Assembly: GCF_001039005.1 (NCBI RefSeq)
Contig: NZ_LDWR01000011.1
Location: forward strand, 1-64,000
DNA from: Burkholderia cepacia
GTDB taxonomy: Bacteria; Pseudomonadota; Gammaproteobacteria; Burkholderiales; Burkholderiaceae
DNA: 64,000 bases
Direction: 5' to 3'
Shown here piece by piece: positions 6,639-34,890 of this stretch. Under the pieces are notes generated by a model, which was not told where the DNA came from, searched no databases, and saw only the letters and a list, made by a program, of their open reading frames with translations. Position 1 is the first letter of the stretch. Every line of letters starts with the position of its first letter. The translations under genes and the position numbers were made by a program.

Positions 6639-6855
6639 GCACCCTTCCCCATCGTTCGATTCCATCGTGTCGCCGCGCGGCCGTAAAAGGGCCGGCGCAG
6701 CCGTCCGCATTGCGAAAGACGGCATGGTACCGTGTTCCACCCCGCGTTTCATCTACCGGCCCGCCGGCGCCGGGTCGTCCTCCGTTTCGTCCGCCGCGAA
6801 CGGCTTTCCGGTCGCGAACCGCGGTCGAAATCGGGTATCCTACGGCCGTTCGTTC

Positions 6856-7018
6856 GCCGGTGCCCTTCGGGGCCGAAGAGGGAACACAGGGCGCGCCGCG
6901 CGCCGCTGTGGCTGCCCCCGCAACTGTAGACAGCGAGCCGATCTCCCCCTCACGCCACTGGTTCGACCGGGAAGGCCGGGAGCCGGCGCCGACCTGTCAG
7001 CCAGGAGACCTGCCGGCC
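6856..7018 (+). promoter_or_regulatory. Cobalamin riboswitch upstream of cobG
   Basis: The stretch begins GGTGCC at 6859, runs through GAAGAGGGAACACAGG and CTGCCCCCGCAACTGTAG, and ends with CCGGGAAGGCC and the B12 box AGCCAGGAGACCTGCCG at 6999-7015. These are the conserved blocks of the adenosylcobalamin riboswitch in their usual order. TATCCT at 6836-6841 is a plausible -10, placing transcription start just before the aptamer; the -35 is unclear. It should reduce cobG-H-I-J expression when B12 is plentiful. Confidence 0.93.
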
Positions 7019-7099
7019 AGAAAGTGCGTGCGTGCCAGTCGGCGTCGGGCGGGGTGTACCGATGCGTTGGCCGCGGCGCGACACTGCCCCGGTACCCCG

Positions 7100-25676: not shown

Positions 25677-26129
25677 TCACGGCTTGCCGTGGCGGGCCAG
25701 GAACCGGTCGAGTTGCGAGGCAAACGTCTTGCCGTCGCGCGCGCTGAACGGCGCCGGCCCGCCCGTGTCGATGCCCGCGCTGCGCAACTGGTCCATCATC
25801 GCGCGCGTCGACAGGCGCTCCTCGATGTTCTCGCGGCTGAACCAGTTGCCGCGCGGGTCGAGCGCATGCGCGCCCTTGTCGAGCACGGCGGCGGCCAGCG
25901 GGATGTCGGCGGTGATCACGAGGTCGCCGGCCTCGGCCATCTCGACGATGCGCGCGTCAGCCACATCGAAGCCGGCCGGCACCTGCACCGCCTTGATGAA
26001 CGGCGACGGCGGCGTGCGCAGAAACTGGTTCGCGACCAGCGTCACGCAGATTTCGGCACGACGCGCGGCGCGAAACAGCATGTCCTTGATGACGGCGGGA
26101 CACGCGTCGGCATCGACCCATACTTGCAT
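25677..26129 (-). CDS. YaiI/YqxD (DUF188) family protein
   Basis: The 150-residue protein begins [20 protein letters not shown], the family signature, and contains [20 protein letters not shown] with conserved acidic residues, followed by [20 protein letters not shown]. The family is PIN-like and may act on nucleic acid; no role is established. ATG 26129 is chosen because the longer frame adds unrelated residues. It lies 58 bases after the chelatase gene on the same strand. Confidence 0.9.
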
Positions 26130-26187
26130 GGCGGTTTTTTCCAGTGAGCAGCAGAAGCGGCGATCATAGCGCACCGCCGGCCGGCAA

Positions 26188-26871
26188 TCAGCCGATCGGG
26201 TCCATGCAAAGCGCATCGGCCGTCACCCACTGCGCGCCCCATGCAGCGGCGAGCCGCGCGCCCTGCCCGATCCGCACGGCCGCATCGTCGAAGTCGACGA
26301 ACACGACGTGATCGGCCGCCGAGGGTTTCGCCGGCGTCTCGCGCGTGCGCCCGTCGGACAACACCCACAGCCAGCGCTGCTTGTCGGGCTCGCGCCGCGC
26401 ATCGTGCGCGAGCAGGTGCGCGGCGGCCGCGATGCCGTCCGCGAGCGGCGTGCCGCCGCCGCCGTCGACCGGTTCGAGCCAGCGCGCGTTCCACCAGCGC
26501 GGCACGGCCGGACCGAAGCGTCGCGCGGCGCCATTGCCACCGAAGCAGATCAGCGCGGTTTCGACGCGGTCGCGCGCGGCGCGATCGAAATACGCGACGA
26601 TCAGCCCCTTCGCCAGCGCGAGCCGGTCGTGCGACAGCATCGACGCCGAACAGTCGAGCACGAAGCAATGCAGCGCATCCGGTGCGCCGGCACGCTTCCG
26701 GTAGCGCAGATGGCCGTGATGCAACGGATCGCCGCGCTTCGCGGCGAACGTCGCCGGCCACGCGACGGCCGTGCCGGTGCGCGCCGTACCCGGCACGCGT
26801 GCGGCTGCGCCTTGCTGCCATCGAGGACCGCGAACGGCGTTCGCGGCGGCGCCGGCTCGATGGCTCAGTGT
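26188..26871 (-). CDS. chlD: VWA portion of ChlD-like cobaltochelatase, reached by -1 frameshift
   Basis: This frame lacks a convincing start near its useful part and continues the ChlI frame after a -1 slip at 26871-26877, giving a full product of about 584 residues. After the join it reads [11 protein letters not shown], then a von Willebrand A domain with the MIDAS motif [17 protein letters not shown] and SDGRT, the metal-ion site that in ChlD/CobT contacts the large chelatase subunit. Together with ChlI it would power cobalt insertion by CobN. The alternative is a separately started VWA gene, as drawn in some genomes. Confidence 0.85.
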
Positions 26872-26877
26872 TTTTTT
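26817..26877 (-). promoter_or_regulatory. Programmed -1 ribosomal frameshift signal in chlI/chlD
   Basis: In the mRNA, codons TTA AAA AAA CAC TGA end the ChlI frame. The seven A residues (26871-26877) allow a one-base backward slip. Six bases later a stem-loop starts: outer arms GCCATCGAG (26864-26856) and CTCGATGGC (26825-26817), nine perfect pairs, enclosing a second perfect stem CCGCGAAC/GTTCGCGG (26846-26839 with 26835-26828) with a three-base loop. Slippery run, spacer and structure match a stimulated -1 site, as reported for chlD genes in other prokaryotes. Confidence 0.85.
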
Positions 26878-27941
26878 AACGGCAGCGGCACCACGCTTTT
26901 CACGTCGCGCAGCCCGGCCGGCTCGGGCCGCAGATAGCCCCAGTCGCCCTGCGCGACGGCGGTGTCGTTCCCGGTTGTGCCCGGTTGATCTTCCGGCTGC
27001 TGGCGTGCCTCCGGCGGTGAACGATCGTCGCGTGCGCGGTCCGGCTGCGACGCGCCGGACGACGGCGGCGTACCGGCATGGCGCCGGTGCCGCAGCACGG
27101 CTTCGGCCACGCGCGCCACGTGCGACATCGTCACCGCATCGGCCTGCTCCAGCGCGGCGAGTGCGCGCGCGGCGCGCAGCATCACGAGATCGGCGCGCAA
27201 CCCGTCGACGGCCGCGTCGATGCACAGCGCGCTGACATGCGCATGCACCGCATCGCCGAAATCGAGCATCCCCAGCCGCGCACGCGCCGCGTGAATCCGG
27301 TCGCCGAGTTCGCGCTGCGCGGCTGCATGGCGTGCGCGGAACGCATCCGGATCGAGATCGAATGCCAGCCGCGCTTTCACTATCCGCTCGCGCTGCGCGG
27401 CATCGAAACAGTTCTCCAGCTCGACCATCAGCCCGAAACGGTCGAGCAACTGCGGACGCAGTTCGCCTTCTTCGGGATTCATCGTGCCGATCAGCACGAA
27501 GCGCGCGTCGTGCGCGTGCGACACGCCATCGCGCTCGACGAGGTTGACGCCGCTCGCGGCGACGTCGAGCAGCGTATCGACGAGCCCGTCGGCGAGCAGG
27601 TTGACTTCGTCGACATACAGCACGCCGAGATGCGCGCGCGCAAGCAAGCCCGGCCGGAAGCGCACGCCGTTTTCGGCCAGCGCATGCGCGAGATCGAGCG
27701 TGCCGGTGACCTGTTCGTCGCTCGCCGACAGCGGCAGCGTGACGAACTGCCCTTCAGGCAGCAGCTCCGCGAGGCCGCGCGCGGCGGTCGATTTCGCGGT
27801 GCCGCGCGGCCCGCTCACCAGCACGCCGCCGAGCGACGGGTCGATCGCGGCGAGCAGCAGCGCCTGCTGCAATGCATCCTGCGCGACGAGCGCCGCAAAC
27901 GGAAAGACCGCGCGGGCGCGGTGCAGTGTCGGATCGGTCAT
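26865..27941 (-). CDS. chlI: ChlI-like AAA+ subunit of cobaltochelatase
   Basis: The zero-frame product has 358 residues. Walker A is SGPRGTAKST (about residue 43), Walker B is VLYVDEVNLL, and GTMNPEEGELRPQLLDRFGL is the sensor region typical of magnesium-chelatase I subunits. A Pro/Gln/Arg-rich linker follows from about residue 295 and the frame ends at KKH-stop directly after the slippery A run. The start overlaps the cobN stop by four bases (ATGA). It should hydrolyse ATP to drive CobN, taking the place of CobS. Confidence 0.92.
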   Translation of the reverse strand: MTDPTLHRARAVFPFAALVAQDALQQALLLAAIDPSLGGVLVSGPRGTAKSTAARGLAELLPEGQFVTLPLSASDEQVTGTLDLAHALAENGVRFRPGLLARAHLGVLYVDEVNLLADGLVDTLLDVAASGVNLVERDGVSHAHDARFVLIGTMNPEEGELRPQLLDRFGLMVELENCFDAAQRERIVKARLAFDLDPDAFRARHAAAQRELGDRIHAARARLGMLDFGDAVHAHVSALCIDAAVDGLRADLVMLRAARALAALEQADAVTMSHVARVAEAVLRHRRHAGTPPSSGASQPDRARDDRSPPEARQQPEDQPGTTGNDTAVAQGDWGYLRPEPAGLRDVKSVVPLPLKKH

Positions 27942-30900
27942 CGCCGTCCCCCTTCCTGGAGTTGTTCGCTTTCGAGCCAGACCGCTTCGATCCGCTCGCG
28001 ATAGTCGCCCGGCTGCTGCCACAAGCCGCGCTGCATCGCCTCGACGAAGCGTTCGCAGATGCCGTGCAGCGCCTTCGGATTGTGCCGTTCGAGGAACCCG
28101 CGCGTGTCGTCGTCGAACAGGTACGCGTCGGCGACGAGCGCGTACTGGTGGTCGGACAGCACGCGCGCGGTCGCGTCATAGCCGTACAGGTAGTCGACGG
28201 TCGCGGCCAGCTCGGCCGCGCCCTTGTAGCCGTGGCGCTTCACGCCGTCGAGCCATTTCGGGTTGACGACGCGCGAGCGGATCACGCGTGCGATTTCCTC
28301 GCGCAGCGTGCGCATCTTCGGCGCGACCGGGTTCGCATGGTCGCCGTGGTAGATGCTCGGCTGCTGCCCGGACAGGTGCCGCACGGCCGCCGTCATCCCG
28401 CCCTGGAACTGGTAGTAGTCGTTCGAATCGAGGATGTCGTGCTCGCGGCTGTCCTGGTTCTGCACGACGACGTCGATCGTCGCCAGCCGCTCGCCGAACA
28501 CGTCGGGCGCGGCATCGCCCGCGCTGTTCTGCGCATACGCATGGCCGCCCCACTGACGGTAGGCGTCGGCGAGATCGGCGTCGGTCTGCCAGCGGCGCTG
28601 GTCGATCAGGTCCTGCAGGCCCGCGCCGTAGCTGCCCGGCCGCGCGCCGAACACGCGCCAGCCGGCGCGGCGCCGCGCTTCGTCGGGCGGCACGCCTTGC
28701 GCGACCCACTTCGCGCGTTCGCGCTCGATGCGCGCGCGGATCGGGTTCAGTTCCTCCGGCTCGTCGAGCGCGGCGACGGCCTGCACCGCTGCGTCGAACA
28801 GGTGCATCAGGTTCGGGAACGCATCGCGGAAGAATCCGGATACGCGCAGCGTCACGTCGATGCGTGGCCGGTCGAAGATCTCGATCGGCAGGATCTCGAA
28901 GTCGGTCACGCGATGGCTGCCGTGCGCCCATTTCGGCCGCACGCCGAGCAGCGCAAACGCCTGCGCGATGTCGTCGCCGCCCGTGCGCATCGTCGCCGTG
29001 CCCCACACGGACAGGCCGATCGCGCGCGGATAGTCGCCGTGATCCTGCAGATGACGCTCGATCAGTTGCTGCGCGGATTTCAGACCGAGCGACCAGGCGG
29101 CTTGCGTCGGCACCGCGCGCGTGTCGACCGAGTAGAAGTTGCGGCCGGTCGGCAGCACGTCGGGGCGGCCGCGCGACGGCGAGCCGCTCGGCCCCGGCGG
29201 CACGAAGCGGCCGTCGAGCCCGCGCAGCAGCTGGCGCATTTCCTCGCCGCCGCATGCGTCGAGCGCGGGGATCAGCGTCGAGCGCACGCGCTCGATCACG
29301 GCGAGTGTATGCGGCCATGCGCCGGGCGGTGTCGCGTCGGTGCCGGCGTTGCCGCCTGCGGCTGCGCACAGCCCGTCCAGCCACTGCTGCGCGAGCCGTT
29401 CGAGCCGCTCGCGCGTATCGCCCGCATGGCGCCACGGCGACGCGTCGAGCGCCTGCAGGACTGCCGGGCGCGGGCCGGCCCACGGCGCGGCCCAGTCGGC
29501 CGACAGCGGATCGAAGTCGTCGCCGAGCGCGAGATCGCGCGCGAGCGCGCCGATCAGCCCCGCACGCACGCCCTTGCCGTCGCCGATCGGAAAACGCGCG
29601 AGCGCGAGCAGCGTGTCGCGCCGCTGACGGTCGGCCGGCGATACGCCGAACACGTGCAGCCCGTCGCGAATCTGCGCTTCCTTCAACTCGCACAGCCATG
29701 CGTCGACGCGCGTCAGCAGCGCATCCTCGTCGCCAGTGTCGCGCGGCGGCGATACGCTCAGCTCGTCGTGCAGCCGGTGCTCGGCGATCGTCGCGAGGAT
29801 CGTCTTGCGCAGCAGCTTCGCGCGCCGCGCATCGACCATCAGCGCCTCGTAGTATTCGTCGACCTGCCGTTCGAGATCCTGCAGCGGCCCGTAGTTTTCC
29901 GCGCGCGTGAGCGGCGGCATCAGGTGATCGATGATCACGGCCTGTGCGCGGCGCTTCGCCTGGCTGCCCTCGCCCGGATCGTTGACGATGAACGGATACA
30001 GGTGCGGCAGCGGCCCGAGCGTCAGGTCGGGCCAGCACGCGTCGGACAGCGCGACGCTCTTGCCCGGCAGCCATTCGAGGTTGCCGTGCTTGCCGAGATG
30101 GATGACCGCGTCGATGCGATACGCATCGCGCAGCCAGAAATAGAACGCGAGATACGCGTGCGGCGGCACCAGATCCGCGTCGTGGTAGCTCGCGTAGTCG
30201 TTCTCGCCGCGCGAGCGCGACGGCTGGATGCCGACGAACACGTTGCCCGCGCGCCAGCCGGCGATCGTGAAACGCCCTTGCCGCAGCGTCGGGTCGGCTT
30301 CGGGTGGGCCCCAGCGTTCGTTCAGCGCGTCGCGCACGGCCGCCGGCAGCCGCGCGAAATGCGCGACGTAATCGGCCAGCGGAAAACTCTGGAACGCCGG
30401 GCGGAACGCATGCACGGCCGCGTCATTGGTCACGCCTTCGGTGAGCCGCGCGATCAGCGCGTCGCCGTCGGGCGGCAGGTCGGCCACCGCATAGCCCGCG
30501 TCGCGCAGCGCCGCGAGCACGCGCAGCGCGGACGCCGGTGTGTCGAGCCCGACGCCGTTGCCGATCCGCCCTTCGCTTTGCGGATAGTTCGCGAGAATCA
30601 GCGCGACGCGCTTGCTCGCGTTGTCGAGCGTGCGCAGCCGGCACCAGCCGCGCGCCAGCGCCGCGACGAACTCGATCCGTTCGGCGTCCGGCTGGTAGCG
30701 CACGACGTCGACCTCGGTGTGCGGGCAGCGATACGCGAGCCCCTTGAAGCTCACCGCGCGCGTGACGATGCGCCCGTCGACCTCGGGCAGCGCGATGTGC
30801 ATCGCGATGTCGCGCGCGTGCAGGCCCTGGTTGTCGGCGACCCATGCGTCGCGATTACCGCCGGACAGGATCACCTGCAGCACCGGCGCGTCGCCGGCGA

Positions 30901-31747
30901 GCACCTCCGGCTCGGCGGCATCGATCGCGCCGGCCGCGAACGCGGTCGTGTTCAGCACGAGCGCGACGTCGTGCGTGTCGCACAGCTGCGTGATGACCTC
31001 GCGGCTCACCGCATCCTTGAGCGACGTCACCGCGATCGGCAGCGGATTCAGCCCTTCCCGCACGAGCGCGTCGGCCAGCGCGTCGAACACGGCCGTGTTC
31101 GCGGCCTGCCAGTGCGCGCGATAGAACAGGATCGCGACGACCGGCGCGCCGGGCGTCCAGCGCGGCCGCCAGTCGTCGACGCTCGCGCGGTCGCGCGCCG
31201 GGTGATACAGCGCGGCGGCCGGCAGCGGGCGCGGCAGCTCGGGTTCGTCGCCGAAGCCGAGCGTGTGGAACGCGATGCTGCGCAGCAGCGCGTCGGCGTT
31301 GTGCACGCCGCCTTCGCGCAGGTAGCGCCACCACAGCCGGCACAGGTCAGGCGCGACCGTGCTCTTCGCGACGAGGTTCGGGTCTTCCTGCAGGTCGCCC
31401 GAGAACATCGCGAGCTGCTGCCCGCGCTTCGATGCGAGCGACACGGCCTGCTCGATCCCGTACGGCCAGTACGCTTCGCCGCCGAGATGATCGATCACGA
31501 CCGTCTTCGCGTGGCGCAGCACGTCGTCGACATAGAAATCGACGGACGCCGGCTGCCGCAGGAACGTGACGTTCGCGAGCCGCACGCTCGGAAAGCCGGC
31601 CGGCAGCTGTGGCACGACGCTCGCGAGCAGCGACAGCGTCGTGTCGGCCGAGCTCAGGATCACGATGTCGGCCGGTTGCTGGTCGATCCGGACGACGCCT
31701 TGCGTATCGTCGACGAAGCCGCCCGGCGTGGTGCGCAGCAGATGCAT
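27938..31747 (-). CDS. cobN: Cobaltochelatase large subunit
   Basis: CobN inserts cobalt into hydrogenobyrinic acid a,c-diamide. Its 1269 residues match the family. Conserved blocks include RVALILANYPQSEGRIGNGV, IHLGKHGNLEWLPGKSVALS, GRNFYSVDTRAVPT and the C-terminal RVVNPKWLDGVKRHGYKGA. It lies in the leftward operon nicT-cobW-cobN-chlI/chlD, six bases after cobW, and overlaps chlI by four bases. All subunits act in the cytoplasm with ATP. Confidence 0.97.
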   Translation of the reverse strand: MHLLRTTPGGFVDDTQGVVRIDQQPADIVILSSADTTLSLLASVVPQLPAGFPSVRLANVTFLRQPASVDFYVDDVLRHAKTVVIDHLGGEAYWPYGIEQAVSLASKRGQQLAMFSGDLQEDPNLVAKSTVAPDLCRLWWRYLREGGVHNADALLRSIAFHTLGFGDEPELPRPLPAAALYHPARDRASVDDWRPRWTPGAPVVAILFYRAHWQAANTAVFDALADALVREGLNPLPIAVTSLKDAVSREVITQLCDTHDVALVLNTTAFAAGAIDAAEPEVLAGDAPVLQVILSGGNRDAWVADNQGLHARDIAMHIALPEVDGRIVTRAVSFKGLAYRCPHTEVDVVRYQPDAERIEFVAALARGWCRLRTLDNASKRVALILANYPQSEGRIGNGVGLDTPASALRVLAALRDAGYAVADLPPDGDALIARLTEGVTNDAAVHAFRPAFQSFPLADYVAHFARLPAAVRDALNERWGPPEADPTLRQGRFTIAGWRAGNVFVGIQPSRSRGENDYASYHDADLVPPHAYLAFYFWLRDAYRIDAVIHLGKHGNLEWLPGKSVALSDACWPDLTLGPLPHLYPFIVNDPGEGSQAKRRAQAVIIDHLMPPLTRAENYGPLQDLERQVDEYYEALMVDARRAKLLRKTILATIAEHRLHDELSVSPPRDTGDEDALLTRVDAWLCELKEAQIRDGLHVFGVSPADRQRRDTLLALARFPIGDGKGVRAGLIGALARDLALGDDFDPLSADWAAPWAGPRPAVLQALDASPWRHAGDTRERLERLAQQWLDGLCAAAGGNAGTDATPPGAWPHTLAVIERVRSTLIPALDACGGEEMRQLLRGLDGRFVPPGPSGSPSRGRPDVLPTGRNFYSVDTRAVPTQAAWSLGLKSAQQLIERHLQDHGDYPRAIGLSVWGTATMRTGGDDIAQAFALLGVRPKWAHGSHRVTDFEILPIEIFDRPRIDVTLRVSGFFRDAFPNLMHLFDAAVQAVAALDEPEELNPIRARIERERAKWVAQGVPPDEARRRAGWRVFGARPGSYGAGLQDLIDQRRWQTDADLADAYRQWGGHAYAQNSAGDAAPDVFGERLATIDVVVQNQDSREHDILDSNDYYQFQGGMTAAVRHLSGQQPSIYHGDHANPVAPKMRTLREEIARVIRSRVVNPKWLDGVKRHGYKGAAELAATVDYLYGYDATARVLSDHQYALVADAYLFDDDTRGFLERHNPKALHGICERFVEAMQRGLWQQPGDYRERIEAVWLESEQLQEGGRR

Positions 31748-31753
31748 CGTGCG

Positions 31754-32833
31754 TTACGCCTGTTGCGGTTCGGCCGCGCACGCGGCGTCGAACGCGCGCT
31801 GCAGTGCGGCCGCGTCGAGATCCTCGCCGATCAGCACGAAGCGGCTCGCGCGCGTTTCGCCGTCCTGCCAGCGACGGTCGAAATAGCTGTCGAAGCGGCG
31901 GCCGACGCCCTGGATCACGAGCCGCATCGGCGCGCCGGGCAGCGCGGCGAAGCCCTTCGCGCGGTAGATCGTGTGCGCCTCGACCACGCGCTGCAGCGCG
32001 GCGATCGTCGCTTCGCGCGTGCCCGCGTCGCCCGATACGACCACCGAGTCGAAATCGTCGTGGTGGTGATCGTGATCGCCGTCGTCGGCCGAGCCGTGAT
32101 GGTCGTGACGCAGGTGGATCGTGTCTTCCGATGCCGATTCGAGCCCGAGCAGCATCGCGAGGTCGAGCTCGCCGCGCGTCGCGCGCACGATCTTCACCTG
32201 CGGCGGGATCTCGTCGCGGATCGCGGTTTCGATCTGCGCGAACTGTGCGTCGCCGACGAGATCGGCCTTGTTCACGATCACGAGATCGGCGGACGACAGC
32301 TGATCGGCGAACAGCTCGTGCAGCGGCGATTCGTGGTCGAGGTTCGGATCGGCGCGGCGTTGCGCGTCGACGGCCTGCGGGTTTTCCGCGAACTGGCCGC
32401 TCGCGGCGGCCGGCCCGTCGACGACGGTCACGACCGCGTCGACCGTGAAGCTGTTGCGGATCGTCGGCCAGTTGAACGCCTGCACGAGCGGCTTCGGCAG
32501 CGCGAGGCCCGACGTCTCGATCAGCACGTGGTCGATGTCCGCACGCCGCTCGACGAGCGCTTCCATCACCGGATAGAACTCTTCCTGCACGGTGCAGCAC
32601 AGGCAGCCGTTCGCGAGCTCGTAAAGCTGGCCGGACGCTTCGTCCTGCGTGTCGTCGCAGCCGATGCCGCAACCCTTGAGGATTTCGCCGTCGATGCCGA
32701 GTTCGCCGAATTCGTTGACGATCACCGCGATGCGGCGGCCTTCGGCATGCTGCAGGATGTGGCGCATCAGCGTCGTCTTGCCGCTGCCGAGAAAGCCCGT
32801 GACGATCGTGACGGGAAGCTTGCGTAGGGTCAT
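31754..32833 (-). CDS. cobW: CobW metal-chaperone GTPase
   Basis: The 359-residue GTPase has the P-loop TGFLGSGKTTL near residue 13, the metal-binding ANGCLCCTVQEEF (C-x-C-C), SADLVIVNKADLV for guanine recognition, and a C-terminal CobW domain. A His/Asp-rich loop (LRHDHHGSADDGDHDHHHDD, about residues 242-261) may store or relay cobalt. It sits between the cobalt importer and the chelatase, consistent with delivery of cobalt to CobN, though that role is inferred from context and the family. Confidence 0.94.
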   Translation of the reverse strand: MTLRKLPVTIVTGFLGSGKTTLMRHILQHAEGRRIAVIVNEFGELGIDGEILKGCGIGCDDTQDEASGQLYELANGCLCCTVQEEFYPVMEALVERRADIDHVLIETSGLALPKPLVQAFNWPTIRNSFTVDAVVTVVDGPAAASGQFAENPQAVDAQRRADPNLDHESPLHELFADQLSSADLVIVNKADLVGDAQFAQIETAIRDEIPPQVKIVRATRGELDLAMLLGLESASEDTIHLRHDHHGSADDGDHDHHHDDFDSVVVSGDAGTREATIAALQRVVEAHTIYRAKGFAALPGAPMRLVIQGVGRRFDSYFDRRWQDGETRASRFVLIGEDLDAAALQRAFDAACAAEPQQA

Positions 32834-32858: not shown

Positions 32859-33917
32859 TCAGGCGGAGATCGTCACGTCGATCTCGTCGTAGCGCTTCAC
32901 GCGGTAAATCACGGCCGACACGAGCCAGCTCGCGACGAACAGCCCGATCACGAGGTAGCCGAGCATGCCGAAATGCGCGGCCGCCATCGATGCGAAGTCC
33001 CACACGGGGCCTTGCAGCGACAGCTTGTCGGCGATGAGCGCGAGCACCTCGATGCCGCCGATCAGCGCGGCGACCAGCACGGAGACGAAAGTGATCGTCA
33101 TGTTGTAGTAGAGCTTGCGGATCGGCCGCACGTACGCCCAGCGGTATGCGCCCATCATCAGGATGCCGTCGGTCGTGTCGACGAGCGTCATGCCGGCCGT
33201 AAACAGCGCGGGCAGCACCATCACCGACCAGAACGACAGGCCGCCCTGCACCTGCGTGGCCGAGATACCGAACAGCGCGATCTCGGTCGCGGTGTCGAAG
33301 CCGATCCCGAACAGGAACCCGATCGGATACAGGTGCCAGCTGCGCGACACGAGCCGGAACAGCGGCCGGAAGATGCGCGCGAGCACGCCGCGCTTGTTCA
33401 TCAGCAGGTCGAGATCCTCCTCGACGAGCGGCTCGCCGCGCTTTACCGCGCGAAACGTCCGGTACACGGAGATCAGGATCATCAGGTTCGCGGCCGCGAG
33501 CAGTAGCAGGAAAAACGCCGACACGCAGGTGCTGATCGTCCCGCCGATCGCGCGCATGCCGTCGAAGCGTGCGATCGACGCGGCCGTCAGCGCGACCACG
33601 ACCGACATCACGATCACGACCGTCGAGTGGCCGAGCGAAAAGAACAGGCCCGCGCCGAGCGGGCTGCGGCCCTCCTGCATCAGCTTGCGCGTGACGTTGT
33701 CGATCGCCGCGATGTGGTCGGCGTCGACTGCATGGCGCAGCCCGAACACGTACGCGAGTAGCGCGGTGCCGAGCAGCACGGGCTGGCCGTGGAAGGCGGC
33801 GAACGCCCAGACCCACGCGCCTGCGTTGAAGGCGATCAGCAGCGCATAGATCGCGACGATCTTGCCGCGCAGCCCGGATGAACTGTCGTTGAACAGGCGA
33901 AACAGCGAATCGAGCAT
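32859..33917 (-). CDS. Nickel/cobalt transporter, NicT (HoxN) family
   Basis: This inner-membrane permease has 352 residues and about eight helices. FGLRHAVDADHIAAIDN holds the H-x4-D-H metal motif in an early helix, and FFSLGHSTVV, FGIGFDTATEI and FTAGMTLVDTTDG are the remaining NiCoT signatures. The riboswitch upstream and the cobW-cobN genes downstream argue that cobalt is the metal. AAAGGAG lies five bases before the ATG at 33917. It starts the leftward operon. Confidence 0.94.
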   Translation of the reverse strand: MLDSLFRLFNDSSSGLRGKIVAIYALLIAFNAGAWVWAFAAFHGQPVLLGTALLAYVFGLRHAVDADHIAAIDNVTRKLMQEGRSPLGAGLFFSLGHSTVVIVMSVVVALTAASIARFDGMRAIGGTISTCVSAFFLLLLAAANLMILISVYRTFRAVKRGEPLVEEDLDLLMNKRGVLARIFRPLFRLVSRSWHLYPIGFLFGIGFDTATEIALFGISATQVQGGLSFWSVMVLPALFTAGMTLVDTTDGILMMGAYRWAYVRPIRKLYYNMTITFVSVLVAALIGGIEVLALIADKLSLQGPVWDFASMAAAHFGMLGYLVIGLFVASWLVSAVIYRVKRYDEIDVTISA

Positions 33918-34119
33918 GACGCTCCTTTGCGAACGGTCGACATGAAGCATGCCAACACGGCCGTCGCTGCGCGGCCCCGTGCGGCCCCGCCCTCCATCGG
34001 GCCGGATCATGCGCGCTTGCGCGGGCGGCCGGACGACGGGAATCGGGAAACGCTCGGGTGTCGGGCACGCTGCGGCCGTGGACGATGCGCCGCCTCCCCG
34101 CGGCGCTGAACCCCAACGT

Positions 34120-34354
34120 TTAGGCCGGTATCCGGGCTGACGAACACGCTGCTTCGCCTTCCCGGATGCGCGGGGCATCCAGTGGCGGTCGTCCGCATGC
34201 GCGCGGCATGCGGCGAAGCGGCGTTGCATCGCGGCGGGCACGATGCGTTCGCTTACCGTTGCGGGGGCAGCACAGGTTGGCTCGACTGCGACGCAGGCAG
34301 GCTCCCTGTTTCCCGTTTAACTGCGCGCGCCGGAGCGGCGCGCGCGAGCACCAA
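34120..34354 (-). promoter_or_regulatory. Cobalamin riboswitch upstream of the nicT operon
   Basis: Read on the minus strand it begins GGTGCTCG (34352-34345), passes a GC-rich hairpin, AGTTAAACGGGAAACAGGGA, CTGTGCTGCCCCCGCAACGG and CACTGGATGCCCC, and ends CAGCCCGGATACCGGCC near 34123. These are the ordered conserved blocks of the cobalamin aptamer. About 200 bases separate it from the nicT start and hold the expression platform; I see no gene there. High B12 should shut off cobalt import and chelation. Confidence 0.93.
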
Positions 34355-34364
34355 AACGCGTGCG

Positions 34365-34393
34365 AGTGTAGGCGCCGGGGGCGGGAGCGTCAA
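34365..34393 (-). promoter_or_regulatory. Sigma-70-type promoter for the nicT operon
   Basis: On the minus strand TTGACG (34393-34388) is followed after 17 bases by TACACT (34370-34365). Transcription would start near 34358, a few bases before the riboswitch begins at 34354, which supports both calls. Confidence 0.65.
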
Positions 34394-34461: not shown

Positions 34462-34490
34462 TTCGCGCGGGCGGACCGCTGTGCTATCGT
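34462..34490 (+). promoter_or_regulatory. Possible promoter for the cobA operon
   Basis: TATCGT at 34485-34490 is a fair -10 placed about 12 bases before the plus-strand riboswitch. The -35 at the proper distance, TTCGCG (34462-34467), is poor, so an activator or a different promoter cannot be excluded. Confidence 0.4.
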
Positions 34491-34501
34491 AGCGCCGCGT
34501 T

Positions 34502-34706
34502 CGGTGCTCGCACGCGCATTCCGCGCATGCAGTTAAACGGGAAACAGGAGGCGGACGACCGCCCGGCCTGTGCTGTCCCCGCAACGGTACGCCGCCCGCG
34601 CGACGCGCTTCCCCGCGCACGCGCCCATGCCGCCCACGATGCCACTGCCCTTCACCGGGCGGGAAGGCCGCGGCCTGGCAAGCGGCCAGCCCGGATACCG
34701 GCCGAC
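34502..34706 (+). promoter_or_regulatory. Cobalamin riboswitch upstream of cobA
   Basis: It begins CGGTGCTCG, then AGTTAAACGGGAAACAGGAG, CTGTGCTGTCCCCGCAACGG, GCCACTGCCC, CACCGGGCGGGAAGGCCG and CAGCCCGGATACCGGCCGAC near 34704. The blocks are the same as in the divergent aptamer at 34120-34354, with closely similar wording, so the two may have arisen by duplication. The 184 bases between it and cobA contain no gene and should hold the expression platform. Confidence 0.93.
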
Positions 34707-34890
34707 GCAAGGGGCGAGCCCGACGCTCGCCGAACGCCCGATCCGCGGGGGACGGATGGGGTGCGCATTCCACCCGCGTTCGCGCGGGCTTCGCCCGATC
34801 CGTTATGCGTTGCCTGTTTGCCGGCCGCCGATGTGCCGCCCGCCTTCCCCTTTCCACTGTTTCGACACGGTGCGCGCCGTGCCGCGCGCG

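Follow-up and report, generated by a model that had tools for sequence, protein, structure and literature searches.

A probable programmed -1 ribosomal frameshift site with a two-storey hairpin in the cobaltochelatase gene chlI/D of Burkholderia cepacia

How does a Burkholderia that possesses cobN, for the large subunit of cobaltochelatase, and no separate gene for the small subunit obtain all the parts of this enzyme? The question is raised by a locus in the 64 kb stretch of B. cepacia DNA analysed here (the window), in which an AAA+ ATPase frame of the ChlI type runs out just after a run of A residues and a VWA-domain frame continues from that run in -1. From the comparisons set out below, we put at about 93% the probability that ribosomes undergo a programmed -1 shift at this site in the cell, the gene being a frameshifted chlD (fs-chlD) at the end of a riboswitch-led hoxN-cobW-cobN-chlI/D series. 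Such a shift would account for the absence of a separate small-subunit gene from this Burkholderia. An earlier note on this DNA had read the overlap in the same way, as a programmed -1 site joining ChlI and VWA, and the constancy of the slippery heptamer and the covariation of an outer stem among relatives support that reading.

Frameshifting of this kind, in this gene and in this genus, is already known. A study published in Mol. Biol. Evol. in 2020 is said to concern programmed -1 frameshifting in chlD (magnesium-chelatase fs-genes). The available parts of PMC3711429 (Nucleic Acids Res. 2013) describe a cluster of 23 fs-genes for magnesium chelatase, shifted by -1 and spread over six genera that include Pseudomonas and Burkholderia itself. 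According to the available parts of PMC9227772 (Kuznetsov et al., 2022), the signal lets one gene give both the small and the medium subunit, and an RNA structure downstream of the chlD frameshift site is usual. The present locus resembles the genes of both papers in its gene pair, in the -1 direction and in its poly-A slippery site; it differs in that a two-storey hairpin, covariation and a fixed geometry with the stop inside the spacer were not found described in those parts of PMC3711429 and PMC9227772. A literature search on the combination of programmed frameshift, stem-loop, cobalamin and Burkholderia found no report that joined them. The present contribution is to align the two-storey hairpin across relatives and to show how it covaries and how constant the geometry of the site is; parts of this may already be published.

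The overlap of the two frames and its genomic setting

The ChlI frame, which is on the minus strand, ends TTA AAA AAA CAC TGA, and the VWA frame, in -1, is open through the A run to its own stop (26190..26188); direct reading and the list of open reading frames agree on this layout, as they do with the earlier description of it (Table 1). No other A7 or T7 run occurs in the 64 kb of the window. A slip on A_AAA_AAA would be expected to give a product of 357 + 227 = 584 residues, and recomputation returned the lengths previously quoted for this fusion and for the 358-residue ChlI protein. The spacing had also been described correctly: the outer stem begins at 26864, six bases past the A run and immediately after the TGA (26867..26865), which lies in the spacer.

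Table 1. Features of the chlI/D locus and its surroundings in the window
Feature	Position	Strand	Basis
VWA part, -1 frame, 227 codons after slip + stop	26188..26871	-	ORFs, profiles
GTG, probably taken by databases as the start of a free-standing 202-aa VWA protein; the true start is probably elsewhere	26794..26796	-	202 codons to stop
Outer stem, 3' arm, 9 nt	26817..26825	-	fold, pair counts
One-base bulge	26826	-	fold
Inner stem, 3' arm, 9 nt	26827..26835	-	fold, pair counts
Loop of three	26836-26838	-	fold
Inner stem, 5' arm, 9 nt, first pair G-U	26839..26847	-	fold, pair counts
Internal loop, left side, 8 nt	26848..26855	-	fold
Outer stem, 5' arm, 9 nt	26856..26864	-	fold, pair counts, branch counts
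Spacer CAC TGA, 6 bases, zero-frame stop inside (TGA 26865-26867)	26865..26870	-	sequence; layout common to relatives
Slippery heptamer A_AAA_AAA, zero-frame codons AAA AAA	26871..26877	-	read from sequence
chlI part, AAA+ ATPase with AAA lid; 358 aa when read in the zero frame	26865..27941	-	ORFs, profiles
cobN, large cobaltochelatase subunit; TGA overlaps chlI ATG	27938..31747	-	TIGR02257 over cut-off
cobW	31754..32833	-	TIGR02475 over cut-off
HoxN/NixA-type nickel/cobalt transporter	32859..33917	-	TIGR00802 over cut-off
Cobalamin riboswitch heading hoxN-cobW-cobN-chlI/D	34106..34370	-	RF00174, 55.4 bits, cut-off 31.5
Further cobalamin riboswitch	6841-7031	+	RF00174
Further cobalamin riboswitch	34485-34720	+	RF00174

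In profile searches, the chlI part exceeded the cut-offs for PF01078, PF07728 and PF17863, and its matches to TIGR02442 and TIGR02030 fell below both whole-protein cut-offs; the VWA part exceeded the cut-off for PF13519. TIGR02442, which models a fused cobaltochelatase subunit, is matched in the right order, best by ChlI over profile positions 88-343 and by VWA, below the cut-off, over 458-590. The model is of one protein, whereas here there are two frames joined only by a slip, each below the whole-protein cut-off. Just downstream, an open reading frame at 25677-26216 (-), which seems to encode a protein resembling YaiI/DUF188, overlaps the end of the VWA frame.

We read hoxN, cobW, cobN and chlI/D as probably forming one transcript. 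At the Rfam gathering threshold, the three cobalamin riboswitches were the sole matches in the window; the one heading hoxN and the second of the two on the plus strand stand back to back, facing in opposite directions. The genome to which the window belongs (a draft of 188 contigs, 99.99% complete) has one CobN match, and searches of it revealed no CobT, no CobS_N and no second ChlI beyond this locus. A search for the locus in the plasmid collection gave no match. The features that we would expect of an fs-chlD gene can be listed for this locus: an AAA+ ChlI part is followed by a VWA part in the -1 frame; an A-rich slippery heptamer (A_AAA_AAA in the window) stands in the zero frame at the overlap; cobN is present, with no separate small-subunit gene in the genome; and a downstream RNA structure is indicated by fold and covariation, its stimulatory role being our inference.

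If the site works as we suppose, a ribosome with AAA AAA in its P and A sites would reach the base of the compound hairpin six bases ahead and pause, and a fraction of the paused ribosomes would slip back by one base. Ribosomes that did not slip would read one more codon and stop at the TGA, giving a ChlI-like small ATPase subunit of 358 aa; those that slipped would give an ATPase-VWA medium subunit of 584 aa. Together with CobN, the small and medium subunits would make up the cobalt chelatase, inserting cobalt into vitamin B12. That the two products are indeed the small and medium subunits of cobaltochelatase is quite probable from gene content and published work; we presume further that the hairpin stimulates the slip, that both proteins are built into the enzyme and that it matters in what ratio they are made. 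The efficiency of frameshifting at this site would have to be judged by analogy. For chelatase cassettes in E. coli, the available parts of PMC3711429 give 63, 40 and 10% frameshifting for 11, 9 and 7 A residues.

Constancy of the heptamer and the case for separate genes

Relatives were taken from three sets, which overlap in species. For the named set, 560 relatives were found and the best 80 of them used. The genus set comes from 65 genomes, with a match in 64 (in one only weak) and none in the other, from which 63 strong loci, including that of the window, were used. The family search gave a match in 149 of 200 genomes, and the 66 places outside the genus with E < 1e-100 were taken, of which 64 were usable; this set stops short of the ChlI-like matches of lower strength, with nine genomes lying at about 1e-56 to 1e-63 and many more below that. 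Rows were dropped for L211 and L216 (a short piece without a ChlI match), for L086 (the contig ends within the gene) and for eight loci in which the two parts are fused in the zero frame, considered in the last section. This left 198 non-fused loci with a readable ChlI end: 71 named (from the best 80 of 560), 63 genus and 64 family.

In all 198, the ChlI stop is preceded at a distance of three bases by A_AAA_AAA or A_AAA_AAG. The earlier note had named homologues that keep two frames and lack the A run as evidence against its reading, and none was found among these loci. A VWA match is present in 197 of them, the exception (L030) having kept the heptamer; in L034 the heptamer is present and the VWA frame is -1. 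Across the 196 loci that were tabulated, the VWA frame is without exception -1, and no stop interrupts it between the heptamer and the VWA match. Of these heptamers, 151 end in A and 45 in G; the zero-frame stop is TGA in 161, TAG in 34 and TAA in one, TAG being frequent in Pseudomonas. The order of heptamer, three bases, stop and stem is retained among relatives.

These counts bear on two other ways of accounting for the A run. In one, the run would cause transcriptional slippage and hence a mixed pool of mRNA, the hairpin being only a feature for RNA polymerase or for stability; A homopolymers of more than seven are indeed cited for transcriptional recoding in the available parts of PMC3711429. 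The run length is, however, seven in 150 of the 196 loci (the window's among them), six in 45 and eight in just one, the change of the last base from A to G shortens the homopolymer yet preserves the ribosomal heptamer A_AAA_AAG, and the layout from heptamer to stem is kept, all of which makes this explanation very improbable. The other would have a once-fused gene broken by a genuine frameshift mutation, or by a sequencing error. Zero-frame fused homologues do exist (8 of 80 named loci, these being the best 80 of 560), but the two-frame arrangement occurs in 63 of 63 loci of the genus Burkholderia and in other genera, and the VWA frame is open in relatives and constrained by codon position there. 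The conservation of the two-frame arrangement refutes the idea of a broken gene or sequencing error, to which we attach next to no probability.

A more serious competitor to a programmed ribosomal shift is that there are simply two genes: ribosomes reinitiating past the ChlI stop would translate VWA from a start of its own (for example the GTG at 26796), and the A run would be incidental. Many VWA proteins in the databases are 202 aa long, the length counted from that GTG, and a start codon stands there in 38 of the 63 genus loci; at least one in-frame ATG, GTG or TTG lies between the slip and the VWA match in 48 of the 63. Against this, and against the independent start that the earlier note had named as a refutation if proven, 25 of the 63 have no start at the 202-aa position and 15 have none at all in the interval. 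Codon constraint was gauged in the 49 ungapped genus loci: from the stem to the VWA match, positional entropy at the three codon positions of the -1 frame is 0.46, 0.41 and 0.84, third positions past the stem being about twice as variable as the others. This suggests, from sequence variation, that the VWA frame is the one translated here, over a stretch that lies partly downstream of the GTG. Two separate genes would also leave unexplained both the phase-locked A6[A/G] of the 198 loci and the covarying stem six bases behind the A run; we regard them as improbable, and an independent VWA start may be a minor source at most. Database entries that give the 202-aa VWA protein as a gene of its own are suggested to be wrong.

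A hairpin in two storeys

The RNA of 26811-26864 (-) folds at -28.9 kcal/mol (z = -3.06), a value equalled by 2 of 200 shuffles. The nine outer pairs and the three-base loop described in the earlier note were recovered; the inner stem, given there eight pairs, has nine when the closing G-U is counted.

For a scan among relatives, the nine bases after the stop were taken as the 5' arm of the outer stem and a partner was sought downstream, with dinucleotide shuffles of the downstream sequence as control. Nine of nine pairs were found in 137 and eight of nine in 38 of 184 distinct sequences, window included, as compared with 0.6% and 8.3%, respectively, in shuffled sequence; one locus (L143) has an N inside the stem and scores five of nine. 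In the 38 rows of Pseudomonas type, a stem of different sequence stands at the same place, its fifth pair being CG in 18, TG in 11 and TA in nine. Three Burkholderia loci (L147-L149) have a hairpin of 60 instead of 48 bases, with the outer stem kept and the length still a multiple of three.

Covariation was assessed in an alignment (A1) of the window with 95 of the 96 loci that have a 48-base stem (L146 was left out), comprising 95 distinct rows. The A1 loci had been pre-filtered at seven or more of nine outer pairs, and A1 does not include the 38 rows of Pseudomonas type among the 184; this selection biases the percentage of paired outer-stem cells upward, and has less effect on the double changes and on the controls, slid or shuffled. 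A second alignment (A2) is a hand-picked close subset of 38 rows, on which no claim rests. The structure of the window pairs in 86.5% of the cells of A1 (96 sequences), the shuffled mean being 77.9; the figures are 96.6% for the outer stem (raised by the filter) and 76.5% for the inner. The covariation score was 0.292, as against 0.152 in shuffled alignments and 0.057-0.134 with slid partners, and was reached by none of 500 shuffles; the number of pairs changed on both sides, 12, was reached by 13 of 500.

On a tree of the 95 sequences, the outer stem has 15 pair-keeping double changes on single branches (0-6 in slid controls) and seven pair-breaking changes. The inner stem has 16 such double changes (slid controls 1-12), and this count alone is weak evidence, because 12 also appear when the partners are slid by -3; its 44 pair-keeping changes stand beside 35 pair-breaking ones, many more than in the outer stem, which again makes the inner stem weak when considered by itself. 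Its two top pairs are loose, being unpaired in 37 and 56 of the 95 sequences, and RNAalifold, applied to the 96 sequences, retained only seven outer pairs. From this, the inner storey is likely to be part of the hairpin, though a variable part. The alignment of both stems that the earlier note had proposed bears out the outer one and, more loosely, the inner one.

Within the outer stem (26817-26864, -), the wobble positions of the -1-frame codons lie opposite one another, an arrangement that allows silent compensatory changes. Columns 18 and 57 are CG instead of UA in 13 sequences, with the encoded His and Arg kept in 12 of these; at columns 17 and 58, a change from AU to GC (one event on the tree, five sequences) turned both His and Trp into Arg and left the pair intact. 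We read these changes with the pair retained as selection on the RNA, and the relatives compared show, as far as such comparisons reach, a hairpin kept by natural selection. Covariation in this way defines a precise hairpin that can be put to the test.

A parallel is offered by E. coli dnaX, in which a heptamer of the A_AAA_AAG type with a stem about six bases downstream lets one gene specify two AAA+ subunits of one complex, the frameshift yielding the short form. Heptamer type, stem distance and the origin of two AAA+ subunits from one gene are alike at chlI/D. The polarity is reversed, a slip here leading to the long form, and the chlI/D site differs further in the upstream Shine-Dalgarno-like element, which would complete a three-part signal of the dnaX kind and was not found among the 196 loci: duplexes with the anti-Shine-Dalgarno sequence averaged -3.98 kcal/mol against -4.16 in shuffled sequence, and a four-base Shine-Dalgarno core lies upstream of the heptamer in 25 of the 196.

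Relatives with a fused gene

Among the best 80 of 560 named loci, ChlI and VWA are fused in the zero frame in eight (L035, L038, L044, L048, L050, L068, L071 and L088), and the genomes of these eight contain no second strong ChlI match (the next best being at 6e-9). Five come from marine gammaproteobacteria with a CobN match: Neptuniibacter (L035, L071), Psychromonas (L038, L068) and Marinomonas (L048). Neither CobT nor CobS_N was detected in these five genomes, for which completeness is not given; the other three genomes have matches to both CobS_N and CobT, and one of them is without a CobN match.

In the five CobN-bearing fused genomes, either the fused protein does duty for both subunits or a short form arises by an undetected route, perhaps a run of another kind, a +1 site, an internal start or proteolysis, and a free small subunit may, to judge by gene content, be dispensable in some lineages. 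The claim that a separate small subunit is required in a set ratio is weakened by the five genomes in which none was detected; the frameshift itself in Burkholderia is not. That CobN is matched while CobS, CobT and a second ChlI go undetected suggests that fused ChlD alone could suffice to drive cobalt insertion in these marine gammaproteobacteria, in which case the frameshift of Burkholderiaceae and Pseudomonas, held by the two-storey hairpin, would be a device for dosing or co-translational assembly, and not the sole source of an essential subunit; we offer this tentatively, as a rather unlikely interpretation. The fused gammaproteobacteria that lack a small subunit form a natural control for the need of a two-product ratio.

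The linkers of the fused proteins were searched for a site of reversed polarity, at which a slip would take the ribosome out of the fused frame and onto an early stop; the form sought was XXXYYYZ (Y = A or T). No such slippery site is shared by the eight; candidates occur in four (L035, L038, L048 and L050), at differing places, and the longest run in any of the linkers is an A9 in L050. In the Marinomonas genome of L048 (G245, contig C8), the CobN match falls into two parts, some 13 kb from each other and on opposite strands, reflecting either a rearrangement or an assembly error.
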